Source of the DNA: Bacteroidota bacterium
GTDB taxonomy: Bacteria; Bacteroidota; Bacteroidia; Bacteroidales; UBA12481
Direction of reading: 5' to 3'
Length of the DNA stretch: 64,000 nucleotides
Assembly (NCBI GenBank): GCA_018669475.1
Contig: JABHCC010000125.1
Span: forward strand, 1-64,000
A program made the position numbers and the translations under genes. Under the pieces are notes generated by a model that saw nothing but the letters and a program-made list of their open reading frames with translations, did no database searches and had not been told where the DNA came from. Of this stretch, positions 35,935 to 63,597 are shown in pieces. Each line of letters begins with the position of its first letter. The first letter of the stretch is position 1.

Positions 35935-36515
35935 AAAGCAATAAAGTTTTGAATGAATTTAGAACCAGTTTTCCCACTTTTCTCAGGATGAAACTGAACC
36001 CCATAGAAGTTGTCTTTCTTAAGATAGGCTCCAAATGAGATTCCATACTCACAACTCGCAACAGTAGATTCACCAGATTCAGCATAGAAAGAGTGCACGA
36101 AATAAAACCAGGCTTGCTCAGGCAGATCAGTTAATAAGGGATCGGTAGAAGGCATCAGGGTATTCCATCCCATATGAGGTACCTTTTCATTTATTCGAAA
36201 TTTATAAACCCTCTCCTTAAAAATGCCCAGGCCCCGTGTATCACCCTCTTCTGACCAGGCACACATAAGTTGCATACCCAGACATATACCCAGAACTGGC
36301 TGTCTTAAACGCGGAATTAACACATCCAAACCTCTCTCTCTGAGGTTTTTCATAGTACTACTGGCTTCTCCAACACCCGGAAAAATAACTTTATCTGCCT
36401 TGCCTATGACATCCGGATCAGCACTTATTTTATAATTAACATCAAGTCTCTTCAGAGCATTTGCCACCGAGCCAATATTTCCTGCATTATATTTTATTAT
36501 GACAATATTCTCCAT
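35931..36515 (-). CDS. hisH: Imidazole glycerol phosphate synthase glutamine amidotransferase subunit
   Basis: Class I glutamine amidotransferase of 194 residues: oxyanion strand FPGVGEASSTM, nucleophile Cys78 in GICLGMQLM and the His-Glu pair in VQFHPEKSG. It supplies ammonia to HisF. It overlaps the hisB stop by one base. Confidence 0.96.
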   Translation of the reverse strand: MENIVIIKYNAGNIGSVANALKRLDVNYKISADPDVIGKADKVIFPGVGEASSTMKNLRERGLDVLIPRLRQPVLGICLGMQLMCAWSEEGDTRGLGIFKERVYKFRINEKVPHMGWNTLMPSTDPLLTDLPEQAWFYFVHSFYAESGESTVASCEYGISFGAYLKKDNFYGVQFHPEKSGKTGSKFIQNFIAL

Positions 36516-37588
36516 TACAAAATCCCTTTCGTGCTAGGTAACTGACACTCTCCGTTTTGAGAAACAGCCATCTTTATAGTCCGTGCAAATGACTTGAAAA
36601 TTGCTTCAATCTTGTGATGCTCATTTTCTCCATATGCCTCTATTCTTAGGTTACATTTAGCAGCATCAGAGAATGATTTAAAAAAGTGGGAAAATAATTC
36701 TGTTGGAAAGGTTCCAATTAACTCTCTTTTGAATTCAGCATCCCATGAAAACCATGGCCGCCCACCAAAATCGATCAGCACCTTCGCTCTGCAATCATCC
36801 ATGGGTAATTCAAACCCATAGCGGCTGATGCCCCGCTTATGACCAAGAGCTATCAGAAATCCCTCTCCTAAAACTAAGGCTGTATCTTCAACCGTGTGAT
36901 GTTCATCCACCTGTAAATCTCCCTCAACCTTAAGCTCGATATCTACAGATGCATGATGACATATCTGATCAAGCATATGATCAAAAAAACCAATTCCGCT
37001 ATTTATCTTTGATCGTCCCTTTCCATCAAGTGACATATTGAGCCAAATTCGGGTTTCACCTGTAAATCTTTCGATCTTGACCTGTCTTTCAACCTTAAAT
37101 AAATATTCAGCAATAAGTTTCCATGTAGCAAACTCATCTGATCCGAACCTGATGGCCTTACAGCCCAGATTATCTGCTAATTCAACATCCGATTGACGAT
37201 CACCAACAACAGAAGAATGCTCCAGATCATAATCAGGATTATTCAGGTATGCTGCAAACATTCCAGTCCCGGGCTTGCGCGTAGGCATATTATCCGAAGG
37301 TAAAGTTCTATCAATAAGTTCATCAATAAATATTATGCCTTCTGCTCGCAATGTCCCCATAACCAGCCTGTGAACTGGCCAAAAATCAGATTCAGGAAAA
37401 GCATCGCTTCCCAAACCATCCTGATTGCTCACCAAAACCAAATGATAATTCAGTTCCCTGGCCAACTTCCCCAAATGTGTAAAAACTCCTGGCAGAAATT
37501 TGAGCTTATCAAAACTATCAACCTGTTCATCTGGTGGTTCCTCTATTAAGGTTCCATCCCTGTCAATAAATAATATCCTCTTTTTCAT
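36515..37588 (-). CDS. hisB: Bifunctional histidinol-phosphatase/imidazoleglycerol-phosphate dehydratase
   Basis: Residues 1-165 are the HAD phosphatase (nucleophile Asp9 in FIDRDGTLIEEP). Residues about 170-357 are the dehydratase with paired metal motifs FFDHMLDQICHHA, DEHHTVEDTA and HHKIEAIFKSFA. This fusion is typical of enterobacteria and Bacteroidota. The start codon lies directly at the end of an intercistronic repeat (CGG-ATGA), the only upstream gap in this part of the operon. Confidence 0.95.
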   Translation of the reverse strand: MKKRILFIDRDGTLIEEPPDEQVDSFDKLKFLPGVFTHLGKLARELNYHLVLVSNQDGLGSDAFPESDFWPVHRLVMGTLRAEGIIFIDELIDRTLPSDNMPTRKPGTGMFAAYLNNPDYDLEHSSVVGDRQSDVELADNLGCKAIRFGSDEFATWKLIAEYLFKVERQVKIERFTGETRIWLNMSLDGKGRSKINSGIGFFDHMLDQICHHASVDIELKVEGDLQVDEHHTVEDTALVLGEGFLIALGHKRGISRYGFELPMDDCRAKVLIDFGGRPWFSWDAEFKRELIGTFPTELFSHFFKSFSDAAKCNLRIEAYGENEHHKIEAIFKSFARTIKMAVSQNGECQLPSTKGIL

Positions 37589-37633
37589 CCGCGTGTGGGT
37601 TAAACTATCTTTCCTTTTGTCATGCTCGGTTCA
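37589..37633 (-). repeat. Short copy of the TGA...GGATGA intercistronic repeat (hisC-hisB)
   Basis: This 45-nt half-unit begins with the hisC stop codon TGA (TGAACCGAGCATGACAAAAG) and ends in CACACGCGG directly before the hisB ATG. It matches the first half of the 100-nt copy between hisG and hisD and of the copies at 63394-63590. Confidence 0.75.
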
Positions 37634-38671
37634 TGCTAAAATATTTTGCATCTCCTTTAACAGAAATTCATTTTCTTCTCTCGTACCAATACTTATCCGT
37701 AAACAGCCAGAGCAGAGTTCTAAACTGCTCCTGTTTCTTATAACTACTCCTCGCTTTATTAGTTCTGCGTACAGATAATCCGCTTCATCAAGTTTTATGA
37801 GTATGAAATTTGCTTCACTGGGATACACCCTTAACACTCCGCCAATTTTTTGCAATTCACCAGCCATCCGCTTTCTTTCTTTTACAATCAGGCCAATCAT
37901 TTCATATACATAAATGGGGTTATTCAATACCTCCCGGATTTTTCTCTGGGTCAAGACATTAAGATTATATGGATATTTAATTTTCGATAGATAAATAATT
38001 ATCTCAGGATGACCCAATGCCATCCCGCATCTGATTCCTGCCAGTCCCCATGCTTTAGAGAAAGTCCTGAGCAAAACAAGGTTCCGGTACTTCTTTAAGA
38101 GACCTGTCAAACCCTGACTGTCTGAAAAATCAATATAGGCTTCATCCACTACCACTACCCCGTTAAAAGCCCGGACAAGTTTTATAATCTCATCTTCATC
38201 CAGTAAATTTCCTGTCGGATTATTTGGTGAGCAAAGGAAGAGAAGCTTATGATTATTCCTGAACAAGCTGATAACACGATCGGCCGAAAGGCTAAAATCT
38301 TCATTCAATAATACCATATCAATATCAACTCCCTGTATCGCTGAACAAACAGAATACATTCCATAACTTGGTGCAATTGATATTACCCTGTTTTTGCCAG
38401 GATCACATGAGGCCCGTATTAGGAGATCAATTGCCTCATCACTTCCATTTCCAAGAAAAATTTGTTCTGGCTCTATCTCCAGCTCTTCGCCGATCAGAAC
38501 TTTAATCTCGACTTGTTTCTGATCAGGATATCTGTTCAACTCAGTCCCAAATGGATTTTCATTGGCATCAAGATAAATCCGGGCCGTTCCCTCAAATTCA
38601 TCTCTTGCTGAAGAATAGGATTGTAATGACCTGATATTTTCCCTGACCCAATTATCTGCACTGAACTTCAT
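37631..38671 (-). CDS. hisC: Histidinol-phosphate aminotransferase
   Basis: Fold-type I aminotransferase (346 residues) with the PLP Lys in LRTFSKAWGLAGIRCG, the cofactor Asp in VVVDEAYIDFSD and the Asn in SPNNPTGN. It converts imidazole-acetol phosphate to histidinol phosphate. The 1-nt gap to hisD and the shared TGA with the downstream repeat are notable. Confidence 0.96.
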   Translation of the reverse strand: MKFSADNWVRENIRSLQSYSSARDEFEGTARIYLDANENPFGTELNRYPDQKQVEIKVLIGEELEIEPEQIFLGNGSDEAIDLLIRASCDPGKNRVISIAPSYGMYSVCSAIQGVDIDMVLLNEDFSLSADRVISLFRNNHKLLFLCSPNNPTGNLLDEDEIIKLVRAFNGVVVVDEAYIDFSDSQGLTGLLKKYRNLVLLRTFSKAWGLAGIRCGMALGHPEIIIYLSKIKYPYNLNVLTQRKIREVLNNPIYVYEMIGLIVKERKRMAGELQKIGGVLRVYPSEANFILIKLDEADYLYAELIKRGVVIRNRSSLELCSGCLRISIGTREENEFLLKEMQNILA

Positions 38672-38672
38672 T

Positions 38673-39956
38673 TTACTCTCCTTTCATCATTCTCATCCGT
38701 ACTGCCTGAGCATGTGCCTGTAAACCCTCAGCTTCAGCCATTTCAATTACATCAGGCCCAAGCTCTGCAAGTCCGTCTGCCTGAATCTCCTGAAATTGTA
38801 TCGTTTTCATGAAAGATTGCAGATTCAGAGCGCTGAACGACCTGGCATAGCCATTTGTTGGTAGGGTATGATTGGTTCCTGATGCATAATCTCCCGCACT
38901 CTCAGGTGTATAGTTGCCAATAAAAACCGAACCTGCATTCCTCACGTCTTCTGATAATTTCCTGGCCTCTTTTACGCAAATTATCAAGTGCTCCGGAGCG
39001 TAAAAATTTGAAAACTCCATCATCTCACTCAATGATTCGAGTACAATAATCCTGGAGTTAATCAATGACTGCAAAGCAATATCCTTTCTGGGCAGTTCTT
39101 CTACCTGAAGCATAAGTTCCTCTTTAACCCTACTTGCAAATGTTAGACTCATACAAGTAAGAACAACCTGGCTATCTGCACCATGCTCAGCTTGAGATAA
39201 GAGATCAGCAGCCACAAAAGCCGGATCTGCTGTTTCATCAGCAATAAGCAAAAGTTCAGAAGGCCCTGCAGGCATATCAATGGCAATTCCTTCTTCACTC
39301 ACTAACTGCTTTGCAAGCGTAACATATTGATTTCCCGGACCGAATATTTTGTCAACAGGCCTAATTTCTTTGGTTCCATAAGTCATAGCCGCTATTGCCT
39401 GGACCCCACCTATGCGAAAAACTTTTTTTATCCCGCAAATATTTGCAGCATATAAGATGGCCGGATGTATCCGGCCCGATGAATCAGCTGGTGTACACAT
39501 AATTACATCCTGACATCCGGCGATTTTTGCCGGAATACCAAGCATCAGGACCGTTGAGAATAAGGGGGCTGTACCTCCAGGAATATAAAAACCGAGTCTT
39601 TCAATAGGAATATCTTTTTGCCAACACTGAATACTCCGGCTGATATAAACAATAGGTAATTCGACCAACTGATTTCGGTGAAATAGTTCAATATTTCGAG
39701 CAGCTCGTCTGATAGCTAACTTCAGTTTTTCACCCAATACTTCCTCAGCACTTCTGAATTCCATCGCAGGAATCTCCATTGGTGAAGGGTCATAAGCATC
39801 GAATTTCAGACAGTAATCCCGAACTGCATTTTCTCCTGAAGTTTTCACATCATCAAGTATACTTCTTACTTTTCCGACAAGCTGACGGCTATCTATAAGT
39901 GGTCTGACTGCCAATTCTTTCCAATGACTTTTTGGTGGTCTTATAACTGTTTTCAT
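38673..39956 (-). CDS. hisD: Histidinol dehydrogenase
   Basis: The zinc enzyme of the last two steps (427 residues). Signatures are FYIPGGTAPLFSTVLMLGIPA, IDMPAGPSELLLIAD, AEHGADSQ with the zinc ligands and NHTLPTNGYARSFSALN. The ATG start falls at the end of a 100-nt repeat copy (AACGG-ATGA). Confidence 0.96.
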   Translation of the reverse strand: MKTVIRPPKSHWKELAVRPLIDSRQLVGKVRSILDDVKTSGENAVRDYCLKFDAYDPSPMEIPAMEFRSAEEVLGEKLKLAIRRAARNIELFHRNQLVELPIVYISRSIQCWQKDIPIERLGFYIPGGTAPLFSTVLMLGIPAKIAGCQDVIMCTPADSSGRIHPAILYAANICGIKKVFRIGGVQAIAAMTYGTKEIRPVDKIFGPGNQYVTLAKQLVSEEGIAIDMPAGPSELLLIADETADPAFVAADLLSQAEHGADSQVVLTCMSLTFASRVKEELMLQVEELPRKDIALQSLINSRIIVLESLSEMMEFSNFYAPEHLIICVKEARKLSEDVRNAGSVFIGNYTPESAGDYASGTNHTLPTNGYARSFSALNLQSFMKTIQFQEIQADGLAELGPDVIEMAEAEGLQAHAQAVRMRMMKGE

Positions 39957-40056
39957 CCGTTTATATTTAATTTAATTTATCGGATGGAGCTCGCACAACA
40001 AAAACAATCATCCGCGTGTGTGTTAAAATATTTATCCTTTTGGCATGCTCGGTTCA
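39957..40056 (-). repeat. Full copy of the TGA...GGATGA intercistronic repeat (hisG-hisD)
   Basis: The 100-nt element fills the hisG-hisD gap from TGAACCGAGCATGCCAAAAG to AACGG, with the next ATGA being the hisD start. It aligns along its length with the copy at 63490-63590 (same 100-101 nt length, about 85% identical by eye). Two internal features are kept: CACACACGCGGATGA in the middle, where the short copy ends, and an ATCCG...CGGAT stem around an AT-rich loop near the end. Confidence 0.8.
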
Positions 40057-40067
40057 TACTAAATCTT

Positions 40068-40925
40068 TTACTGTATCATCTTTTCTATTGGAATCACTAA
40101 AATACCTTTGGCCCCTGCATCTTTCAGCTGTCCTATAGCTTCCCAAAAAGTATTTTCATTAACTACTGAGTGAACTGAGCTCCATCCCTCCCTGGCCAGG
40201 GGCATCACAGTGGGACTCTGCATTCCTGGCAAAATACTGCATATCTTTTCCAGACTCTCATCAGGTGAATTCAACAGTATATATTTATTGTCACGTGCTG
40301 ACAAAACGGCCTTGAGACGAAAAATAAACTCATTCAATATCCTGACTTTTGACAATTCAAGAACAGGTCTTGCAATCACAACAGCCTCTGATCGCAGAAT
40401 AACTTCAACCTCTTTCAGACCATTTGACATTAGTGTACTCCCTGAACTTACCAGATCACAAATGCCATCGGCCAGACCGATTCCAGGCGCAATTTCTACT
40501 GAGCCACTGATTTTATGTATTTCAGCATTAACACCGTGTTCCTCTAAGAACTTCCTCAGAATATTAGGAAAGGATGTGGCAATTTTTTTTCCAGAAAACC
40601 ATTTTGGTGAATCATAGCCAAAACCTTTGGGAATTGCCAAAGACAAACGACATTTGCTGAAGCCAAGACGTAAAACAATATCCAACTTCTCTCCCCCTTC
40701 CAGGAATACGTCCTCCCCAACAAAACCTATATCAGCCACACCATCAGATACATATTGCGGAATGTCATCATCTCTCAGATATAATACCTCAACAGGAAAG
40801 CTAGTCGCCTGGGCCAATAGGAGACGTTTTCCGTTTGTAAGTTTAATGCCGGCCTCACGAATTATGTCAAGTGATTTCTCACTTAGCCTGCCGGATTTTT
40901 GGATTGCGATTTTTAGTTTTTTCAT
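40068..40925 (-). CDS. hisG: ATP phosphoribosyltransferase, long form
   Basis: HisG of the long, HisZ-independent type (285 residues): KIAIQKSGRLSEKSLDII at the N terminus and the PRPP motif GLADGICDLVSSGSTL. A C-terminal ACT-like regulatory domain (about 210-285) mediates histidine feedback. I start at ATG 40925, because the upstream extension would be translated from the attenuator terminator hairpin. It is the first gene of the operon. Confidence 0.95.
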   Translation of the reverse strand: MKKLKIAIQKSGRLSEKSLDIIREAGIKLTNGKRLLLAQATSFPVEVLYLRDDDIPQYVSDGVADIGFVGEDVFLEGGEKLDIVLRLGFSKCRLSLAIPKGFGYDSPKWFSGKKIATSFPNILRKFLEEHGVNAEIHKISGSVEIAPGIGLADGICDLVSSGSTLMSNGLKEVEVILRSEAVVIARPVLELSKVRILNEFIFRLKAVLSARDNKYILLNSPDESLEKICSILPGMQSPTVMPLAREGWSSVHSVVNENTFWEAIGQLKDAGAKGILVIPIEKMIQ

Positions 40926-40935
40926 TTTTTTGCAC

Positions 40936-40970
40936 AAAAAAAAGGCTTGCAGAATCTGCAAGCCTTTTTG
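40936..40970 (-). terminator. his attenuator terminator
   Basis: On the minus strand AGGCTTGCAGA pairs with TCTGCAAGCCT (40943-40965), followed by eight T (40936-40943). It lies between the His-rich leader ORF and hisG. Its inner TCTGCA can also pair with the TGCAGA at the end of the leader ORF, which gives mutually exclusive structures. Confidence 0.85.
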
Positions 40971-63376: not shown

Positions 63377-63393
63377 AAAGTTTTCTCATAGGT

Positions 63394-63590
63394 TGAACCG
63401 AGCATAACAAAACAAAACCATTGTGACGCTTACAAGGATGATGTTTGTTGTGCTGGAGTAATCCGGCAAATTGAATAAATATTAACGGATGAACCGAGCA
63501 TGACAAAAGGAACAATATTTTAACACACACGCAGCTGATTGTTTTTGTTGTGCGAGCTCCATCCGACAAGTAAAATTCAATATAAACGGA
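63394..63590 (+). repeat. Two tandem copies of the TGA...GGATGA repeat
   Basis: Copy 1 (63394-63489, 96 nt) and copy 2 (63490-63590, 101 nt) each run from TGAACCGAGCAT to AACGGA, with the next TGA following directly. Copy 2 is closely similar to the element between hisG and hisD (39957-40056). Copy 1 is more diverged but keeps TGAACCGAGCAT, GGATGATGTTTGTTGTG and the ATCCG...CGGAT stem. They fill most of the 302-nt gap between the rhodanese gene and the methyltransferase. Confidence 0.8.
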
Positions 63591-63597
63591 TGAATTT

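Follow-up and report, generated by a model that had tools for sequence, protein, structure and literature searches.

Comparison with described mobile repeats

REP sequences and REPINs, with their partner TnpAREP (RAYT), are short, high-copy, mostly extragenic, hairpin-forming and non-autonomous repeats found in many genomes of a clade, and the repeat described here, recognized in the his operon of a member of the Bacteroidales, resembles them in all these respects. It differs from them in being about 100 nt long, in having two adjacent hairpins and no GT[AG]G foot in the consensus of our alignment A2, and in lying at start codons and ending in ATG; no linked transposase was found. The IS200/IS605 elements (IS608, ISDra2) and the MITEs derived from them have several features in common with it: terminal inverted repeats are lacking, hairpins lie close to the ends, insertion takes place on the 3' side of a short constant target, and a stretch inside the element could base-pair with its ends; in IS200/IS605 such guides pair with the element ends, according to the accessible text of PMC6006769. 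The inner CATNNG/CNNATG pairing of the present repeat has, on the complementary strand, the geometry of a guide lying 5' of the hairpin foot that would pair with the cleavage site. Unlike IS200/IS605, the repeat has one inner segment for both ends, has ATG|AA as target (the bar marks the insertion point or junction), and has no TnpA or TnpB inside it or linked to it in the loci examined.

Integron attC sites and the attP of CTX phage are recombination sites made by the folding of a single DNA strand, with unpaired bases at fixed places. The repeat would be like them in both features; in contrast to them, the whole mobile unit would be the folded site and the crossover would fall at ATG|A, not in GTTRRRY. 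The Rickettsia palindromic elements are short repeats that insert inside reading frames without destroying genes. Both kinds spare genes, but the present units lie ahead of the coding sequence, with the start codon replaced.

We consider it likely that the repeat is a non-autonomous mobile element with the target ATG|AA(A), which probably moved as folded single-stranded DNA. Such an element would insert directly 3' of an ATG and, its own last three bases being ATG, would leave the protein unchanged when inserted at a start codon, while replacing that codon and its immediate context; an insertion inside a gene would break the gene. Insertions at starts would survive because the start codon is re-supplied by the element.

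Two copies in the his operon

The window, the whole stretch of 64,000 nt analysed here, belongs to a 5.56-Mb draft genome of 215 contigs. A full unit of 101 nt lies on the minus strand between hisG and hisD (39954-40054; 95.2 bits with covariance model R2 for 39954-40057). Read on that strand, the junction runs AGT-ATG|AACCGAGC...AAACGGATG|AAAACAG, and the final ATG (39954-39956) is the start codon of hisD (38673-39956, minus strand). The ATG on its left flank (40055-40057) is the likely old hisD start. On the upstream side lies hisG (40068-40925, minus strand; stop codon 40068-40070), for which an ATG start at 40925 appears appropriate, the open reading frame list beginning at a TTG at 40961. 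Within the unit two hairpins are predicted: H1 (39987-40050), closed by GAGC..GCTC with ACACACA in its loop, and H2 (39954-39986), in which CATCCG (39981-39986) pairs with CGGATG (39954-39959), the latter containing the hisD start codon. A short unit of 46 nt (37586-37631, minus strand; 27.7 bits with R2) lies between hisC (37631-38671, minus strand) and hisB (36515-37588, minus strand; bifunctional by eye). Its junction reads TTTTAGC-ATG|AACCGAGC...CACACGCGGATG|AAAAAG, and its last bases are the hisB start codon (37586-37588). The ATG on its left flank (37632-37634) is probably the old hisB start, and the TG of this codon together with the first A of the element forms the stop of hisC.

The sequence-only reading had recognized the repeat at both junctions, with sizes (100 and 45 nt) within a base of ours, and had placed its last bases against the hisD and hisB start codons and taken the repeat to supply start context, all of which holds. 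Its wider interpretation, a translational linker filling his junctions, is partly supported. With the units subtracted, the hisG-hisD gap is 10 nt and hisC and hisB share ATGA, as at the other tight junctions of the operon; the element follows a pre-existing start codon and does not fill a junction. The idea that it supplies stop codons fails at hisC, to whose stop it contributes a single A, and stands elsewhere, at aroA and at an isomerase-like gene. Short reading frames within the unit of this genome, seen by eye, encode MNRA, MTKGKIF and MIVFVVRAPSDK, each ending at a stop codon; they show no apparent sequence conservation across the family, where the one modest enrichment is that of an early stop in the first frame.

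A 19-nt core from the 5' part of the unit occurs four times in the window at up to 3 mismatches, against 0.02 expected. Besides the two his junctions noted in the sequence-only reading, a tandem pair lies on the plus strand after a gene end: an older, diverged unit (63396-63491; 72% identity) follows a TTG (63393-63395), and the second unit (63492-63592), recognized from its sequence and by model R2, has no gene start at its end; downstream of it lies GGCTGTCTTCGGACGGCC, a hairpin resembling a terminator, with a run of T. A scan of the window with Rfam at gathering score returned one tRNA and no match on the element, and a scan of four element loci at E up to 5 gave five sub-gathering matches, none on an element.

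Copy number and boundaries in the genome

With as many as 3 mismatches allowed, the 19-nt core is matched 101 times in the genome and the reversed pattern never; a 22-nt core from the 3' half has 85 matches, against 0 in the control. The suggestion that the repeat forms a family with further genomic copies is thereby borne out at more than 100 places. We assembled 109 copies, comprising 70 full units, 25 with the 5' part and a different 3' end, and 14 without the 5' part; most scored copies are 90-95% identical to those of the window. Among the 25 with an altered 3' end, 19 measure 43-47 nt, like the hisC-hisB copy, at least two of these (L047, L162) being longer variants measured short. Most copies of 43-47 nt end at an inner CGGATG that recurs at the true end of the unit, and therefore fit deletion between short direct repeats. 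The short copies, including that at hisC-hisB, are probably products of a deletion running from one CGGATGA repeat of the long unit to the other, an origin that fits them better than the view that the 45-nt version is a first half-unit. In a variant seen in another genome, G223 (L303-L305, L309-L312, L314, L315), and in the present one (L047, L053, L115), an additional hairpin (CCCGATT..ATCGGG or similar) separates H1 from the 3' end; most examples of this variant still finish in ATG.

The trinucleotide to the left of the unit is ATG in 87 of the 99 copies with a 5' end, the remainder having TTG (3), ATA (3), GTG (2), and TGC, ATT, GAT and ACG (one each); these look like decay of a codon that is no longer needed. 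At the other end, 86 of the 109 copies have a terminal ATG that begins a frame of at least 60 aa, while 5 are followed by another unit, one unit following the ATG of another in tandem, and 18 have neither a 60-aa frame nor a tandem copy. The 77 left flanks display an A-rich peak 11-12 nt before the left ATG, as at ordinary starts, which suggests that this ATG probably once served as a genuine start codon; an adenine excess from -14 to -11 is described for Flavobacterium johnsoniae starts in the accessible text of PMC6847099. The target preference is (T/G)ATG|AA: T or G precedes the left ATG in 67 of 77 flanks, against about 45% of 135 background starts, and the right ATG is followed by A in 81 of 83 cases, compared with 86 of the 135 background starts. 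The element thus inserts 3' of a fixed short target, as IS200/IS605 elements do.

Distribution across the order and phylum

Covariance model R1 was built from 13 sequences, 8 of them from this genome, and R2 from 28. As at most 10 candidates per genome were scored, under strict filters, the genome counts are lower bounds: with R1, the usual layout was found in at least 96 of 393 genomes and at least 62 of 206 genera of the order, and with R2 in at least 29 of 395 genomes (the present one included) and at least 20 of 171 genera of the phylum (Bacteroidota). This layout consists of ATG|AAAC..., H1 with an ACACACA-like loop, GTTC, and H2 in the form CATNNG...CNNATG|AAA; unit length is mostly 86-106 nt, with some variants longer. 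Counts were made on 52 of 57 order and phylum loci, leaving aside L254, L329, L337, L348 and L350 for locus-end offsets, poor matches or near-duplication. A frame of at least 60 aa begins where the match ends in 24 of the 29 loci from the order and in 22 of the 28 from the phylum, and AAA follows the terminal ATG in 47 of the 52; frame length and the following AAA lie outside the models. Judged by eye, the downstream genes look mutually unrelated and include metG-, dprA-, sucC- and murI-like genes, so that the tie to his genes proposed in the sequence-only reading was too narrow.

Phages may carry the element: an IMG/VR contig classed as viral (L302, 2973-3052, minus strand) has a shortened copy before a reading frame, at 39.7 bits. 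This copy aside, four scans of viral contigs yielded three matches in one scan that look like chance, and two of the scans were empty. Plasmids and phages gave no match, apart from two of 27 nt in enterobacterial plasmids (E 0.8).

Predicted fold and covariation

Full units are mostly predicted to fold into two adjacent hairpins. The sequence and length of H1 vary, with a hairpin predicted there in nearly all copies. The arms of H2 are exact complements in 45 of the 52 loci, with the pair types CTG/CAG, GTG/CAC, ATG/CAT, CCG/CGG and ACG/CGT; the copies having been found with models built on the layout, this count and that of the ATG ends lean towards it. In alignment A2, which excludes four longer variants (L256, L257, L259, L264), H2 is present in the minimum-energy fold of 27 of 28 sequences by eye, the exception being L263. 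Its positions are paired in 99.4% of cells, as against 16-55% when the pairing is slid along the alignment, and 14 double-change cells are seen, against 3.7 in shuffles, with 0 of 500 shuffles reaching 14. Two of five covariation measures for H2 are not above shuffles, namely double-change pairs (2 vs 1.8) and further pair types (5 vs 4.1).

The inner segment GTTC-CATNNG nearly complements the joined ends of the element, CNNATG|AAAC. Over 53 loci (the 52 and L254), the first element base is mismatched in all 53 and the next three positions are paired in 49, 43 and 49; the base opposite the junction is C in 40, A in 10 and G in 3, and never T, while in the 70 full copies of the present genome it is C in 66, T in 3 and A in 1. 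Copies with AACC ends have a second mismatch in this complement. When folded as circular single-stranded DNA, the helix is continuous over the junction in 36 of 53 (the 52 and the window copy), with a median z of -3.0 against mononucleotide shuffles; in the window copy it is not continuous there (z -1.4). Linear RNA folds compared with dinucleotide shuffles have z of -1.2 for the consensus, +1.4 for the short copy, and -6.9 and -3.0 for the copies of two relatives. Subterminal hairpins are present and the ends, AACCG and CGGATG, are by eye not inverted copies of each other; terminal inverted repeats are thus lacking.

Empty sites in a relative

A genome of the same genus (G001; 62% complete, about 70% identical) gave no match to the element, and 60 pieces of it (654 kb) were used for comparison. 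For the 109 copies, any flank could be aligned to these pieces in 27 cases and both flanks in 7, and the element is absent at all 7 sites with both flanks aligned. The clearest of these are the aroA/aroC junction (L068/L181) and the pair L088/L179. In the relative aroA and aroC overlap; in the present genome the element lies exactly after the ATG of aroC, and the aroA frame now extends into the unit and stops there. At the other five sites the flanks fit loosely, since the genomes are only about 70% identical, or the present copy is itself deleted or diverged. Such presence and absence of copies suggests mobility. In two genomes of one genus (G616, G735), loci L347 and L348 bear the same insertion, almost identical in sequence, before a dprA-like gene; this insertion has been kept in place.

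Search for a mobilizing enzyme

Neither an enzyme nor an autonomous copy was found in searches of the present genome and of the multi-copy genomes. Most of the 3' halves in the present genome without a nearby 5' match, sought as candidates for an autonomous copy, are copies that have diverged or are truncated on the 5' side, and in G223 the matches to the 5' end are likewise short elements. A search for Y1 transposases with PF01797 covered the present genome and 14 multi-copy genomes, with 50 matches in the 14; the single match in the present genome has no model match nearby. Thirty loci from the 50 matches, together with L164, made up 31 Y1 loci, and a model match at E < 0.01 occurred in one of them (L277), which by our estimate is expected by chance at such copy numbers; a Y1 transposase as linked partner was rejected on this count. 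With TIGR02249, none of 15 genomes had an integron integrase over the cut-off, a further difference from integrons; the weaker matches present in all 15 were attributed to other tyrosine recombinases. In one genome, a stretch of about 110 kb (G223:C1:179709-290208) contains eight tyrosine recombinase frames, all of 310 aa and of similar score, and is perhaps an invertible or shuffling region.

The best remaining lead to an enzyme is TnpAREP subclass 2.6, and the element might itself be an unusual REP of such a domesticated HUH transposase, although we regard this as unlikely. The accessible text of PMC6006769 places this subclass mostly in Bacteroidetes, with 'atypical secondary structures', and describes its genes as flanked by atypical structures that are repeated in the genome and are without GT[AG]G. 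Hairpins with an inner segment that pairs with the ends, resembling IS200/IS605 guides, would also agree with such an origin. Against it stand the single match among the Y1 loci, the lack of a PF01797 match in a multi-copy genome that is 89% complete (G362), and two loci whose product has a YIH[NQ]NP motif (L290, L292), which have no model match and, by eye, other palindromes; no RAYT gene flanked by the repeat was found in the scan of the 31 Y1 loci or by eye at L290 and L292. Y1 genes at L273, L290 and L164 are flanked by different GC-rich palindromes (e.g. CCGGCCTTCAGGCCGGGG), apparently REP-like families of their own.

Placement at start codons

The position of the units exactly at starts is also what a cis-acting RNA leader would have, one whose inner CAU pairs with the old or the new AUG as a translational switch and which spread because it is regulatory. 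The start codon does lie within a covarying helix, and in 29 of the 52 loci a stop codon comes no later than 5 codons into the frame of the left ATG, as against 35% in shuffles, with in-frame read-through in one. A leader would, however, hardly account for the apparently unrelated downstream genes, the near-identical copies within a genome, the empty sites in the relative, or the copies away from starts, namely the tandem pair at 63396-63592 and 8 of 15 places in G223 without a frame of over 60 aa near the end of the unit. Start placement itself is moreover largely explained by a target motif and purging, as set out below, and we therefore consider the leader reading improbable.

Of the KATGAA sites in the contiguous window, 116-121 are within genes, 13 are at start codons and 5-10 fall elsewhere; start codons account for 57-72% of the non-coding KATGAA sites and for 76-88% of the ATGAAA sites. 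Interrupted genes were sought among the 95 copies with a 5' part and none was recognised: 25 of the 95 give a joined stop-free stretch of at least 25 codons on each side, of which the two longest, on inspection, proved not to be interrupted genes, the others having at most 57 codons on the shorter side. This, taken together with the scarcity of non-coding KATGAA sites other than starts, suggests that a motif target combined with purging predicts most of the placement; loss of gene-breaking insertions and restoration of the ATG at starts complete this explanation of the element as a mobile unit with a short DNA target. Two other notions were dropped: a spliced or self-splicing intron, no interrupted gene having been recognised among the 95 copies, and retro-insertion as the cause of 5' truncation, a deletion sparing the gene start yielding the same pattern.

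Insertion aimed at start codons as such, through mRNA or single strands exposed at initiation sites and not through a DNA motif, would accord with the roughly 80% of copies at starts. A null drawn from element-bearing loci (with 28 KATGAA sites at starts, 256 between genes and 663 in coding sequence) had suggested a stronger start excess, but it is biased by masked starts and truncated genes. When the KATGAA sites of the window serve as the null, its own copies being left unmasked, a start excess remains (p from 0.07 to 8e-7 according to the gene-length cut-off); with the ATGAAA null there is none (p 0.3 to 1). As the window null removes most of the excess, the claim of start-codon targeting was lowered, and we now hold it to be very improbable. 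Finally, the notion that the units are ordinary conserved his spacers, which their position alone might suggest, is refuted by the 101 places in the genome, by the lack of a model match at E up to 0.5 in hisB loci of relatives, of which 14 were retrieved and 8 scanned, and by four relatives' junctions, read by eye on one strand only, which are not conserved his spacers.

Proposed mechanism and implications

Returning to a mobile element with a short target, the excised form would be a single-stranded circle folding into a dumbbell, in which ATG|AAA would lie in an almost perfect duplex, mismatched at the crossover. This folded junction could be used in trans by a strand-specific recombinase or an HUH transposase. 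The repeat may, more tentatively, represent a phylum-wide class of single-stranded DNA elements, undescribed as far as our literature search reaches, in which the excised dumbbell circle is the recombination site and the start codon the attachment site. That search met no start-codon element of such kind; its coverage of subscription papers was thin, and absence from print is not claimed. After insertion the old start codon would open a short upstream reading frame and the new one would sit in H2, so that expression of the downstream gene is probably changed.

If this is correct, the element would limit its own harm by carrying the codon that it disrupts, and the swap of start codons would be silent for the protein. 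Translation starts would also have been exchanged naturally, many times over, in bacteria described in the accessible text of PMC6847099 as being without Shine-Dalgarno sequences. The copies point to a recombinase acting on the element, and across the phylum they offer ready pairs of gene starts with and without it, suited to studying effects on initiation, of upstream frames and of hairpins at the start. For annotation, it matters that the repeat forms the 5' context of many gene starts and that the reading frames of some upstream genes terminate within a unit. One such case (L163, ~2437-2539) is the isomerase-like gene, assigned by eye, which ends inside a unit with its stop codon supplied by the latter, the left ATG having been lost.
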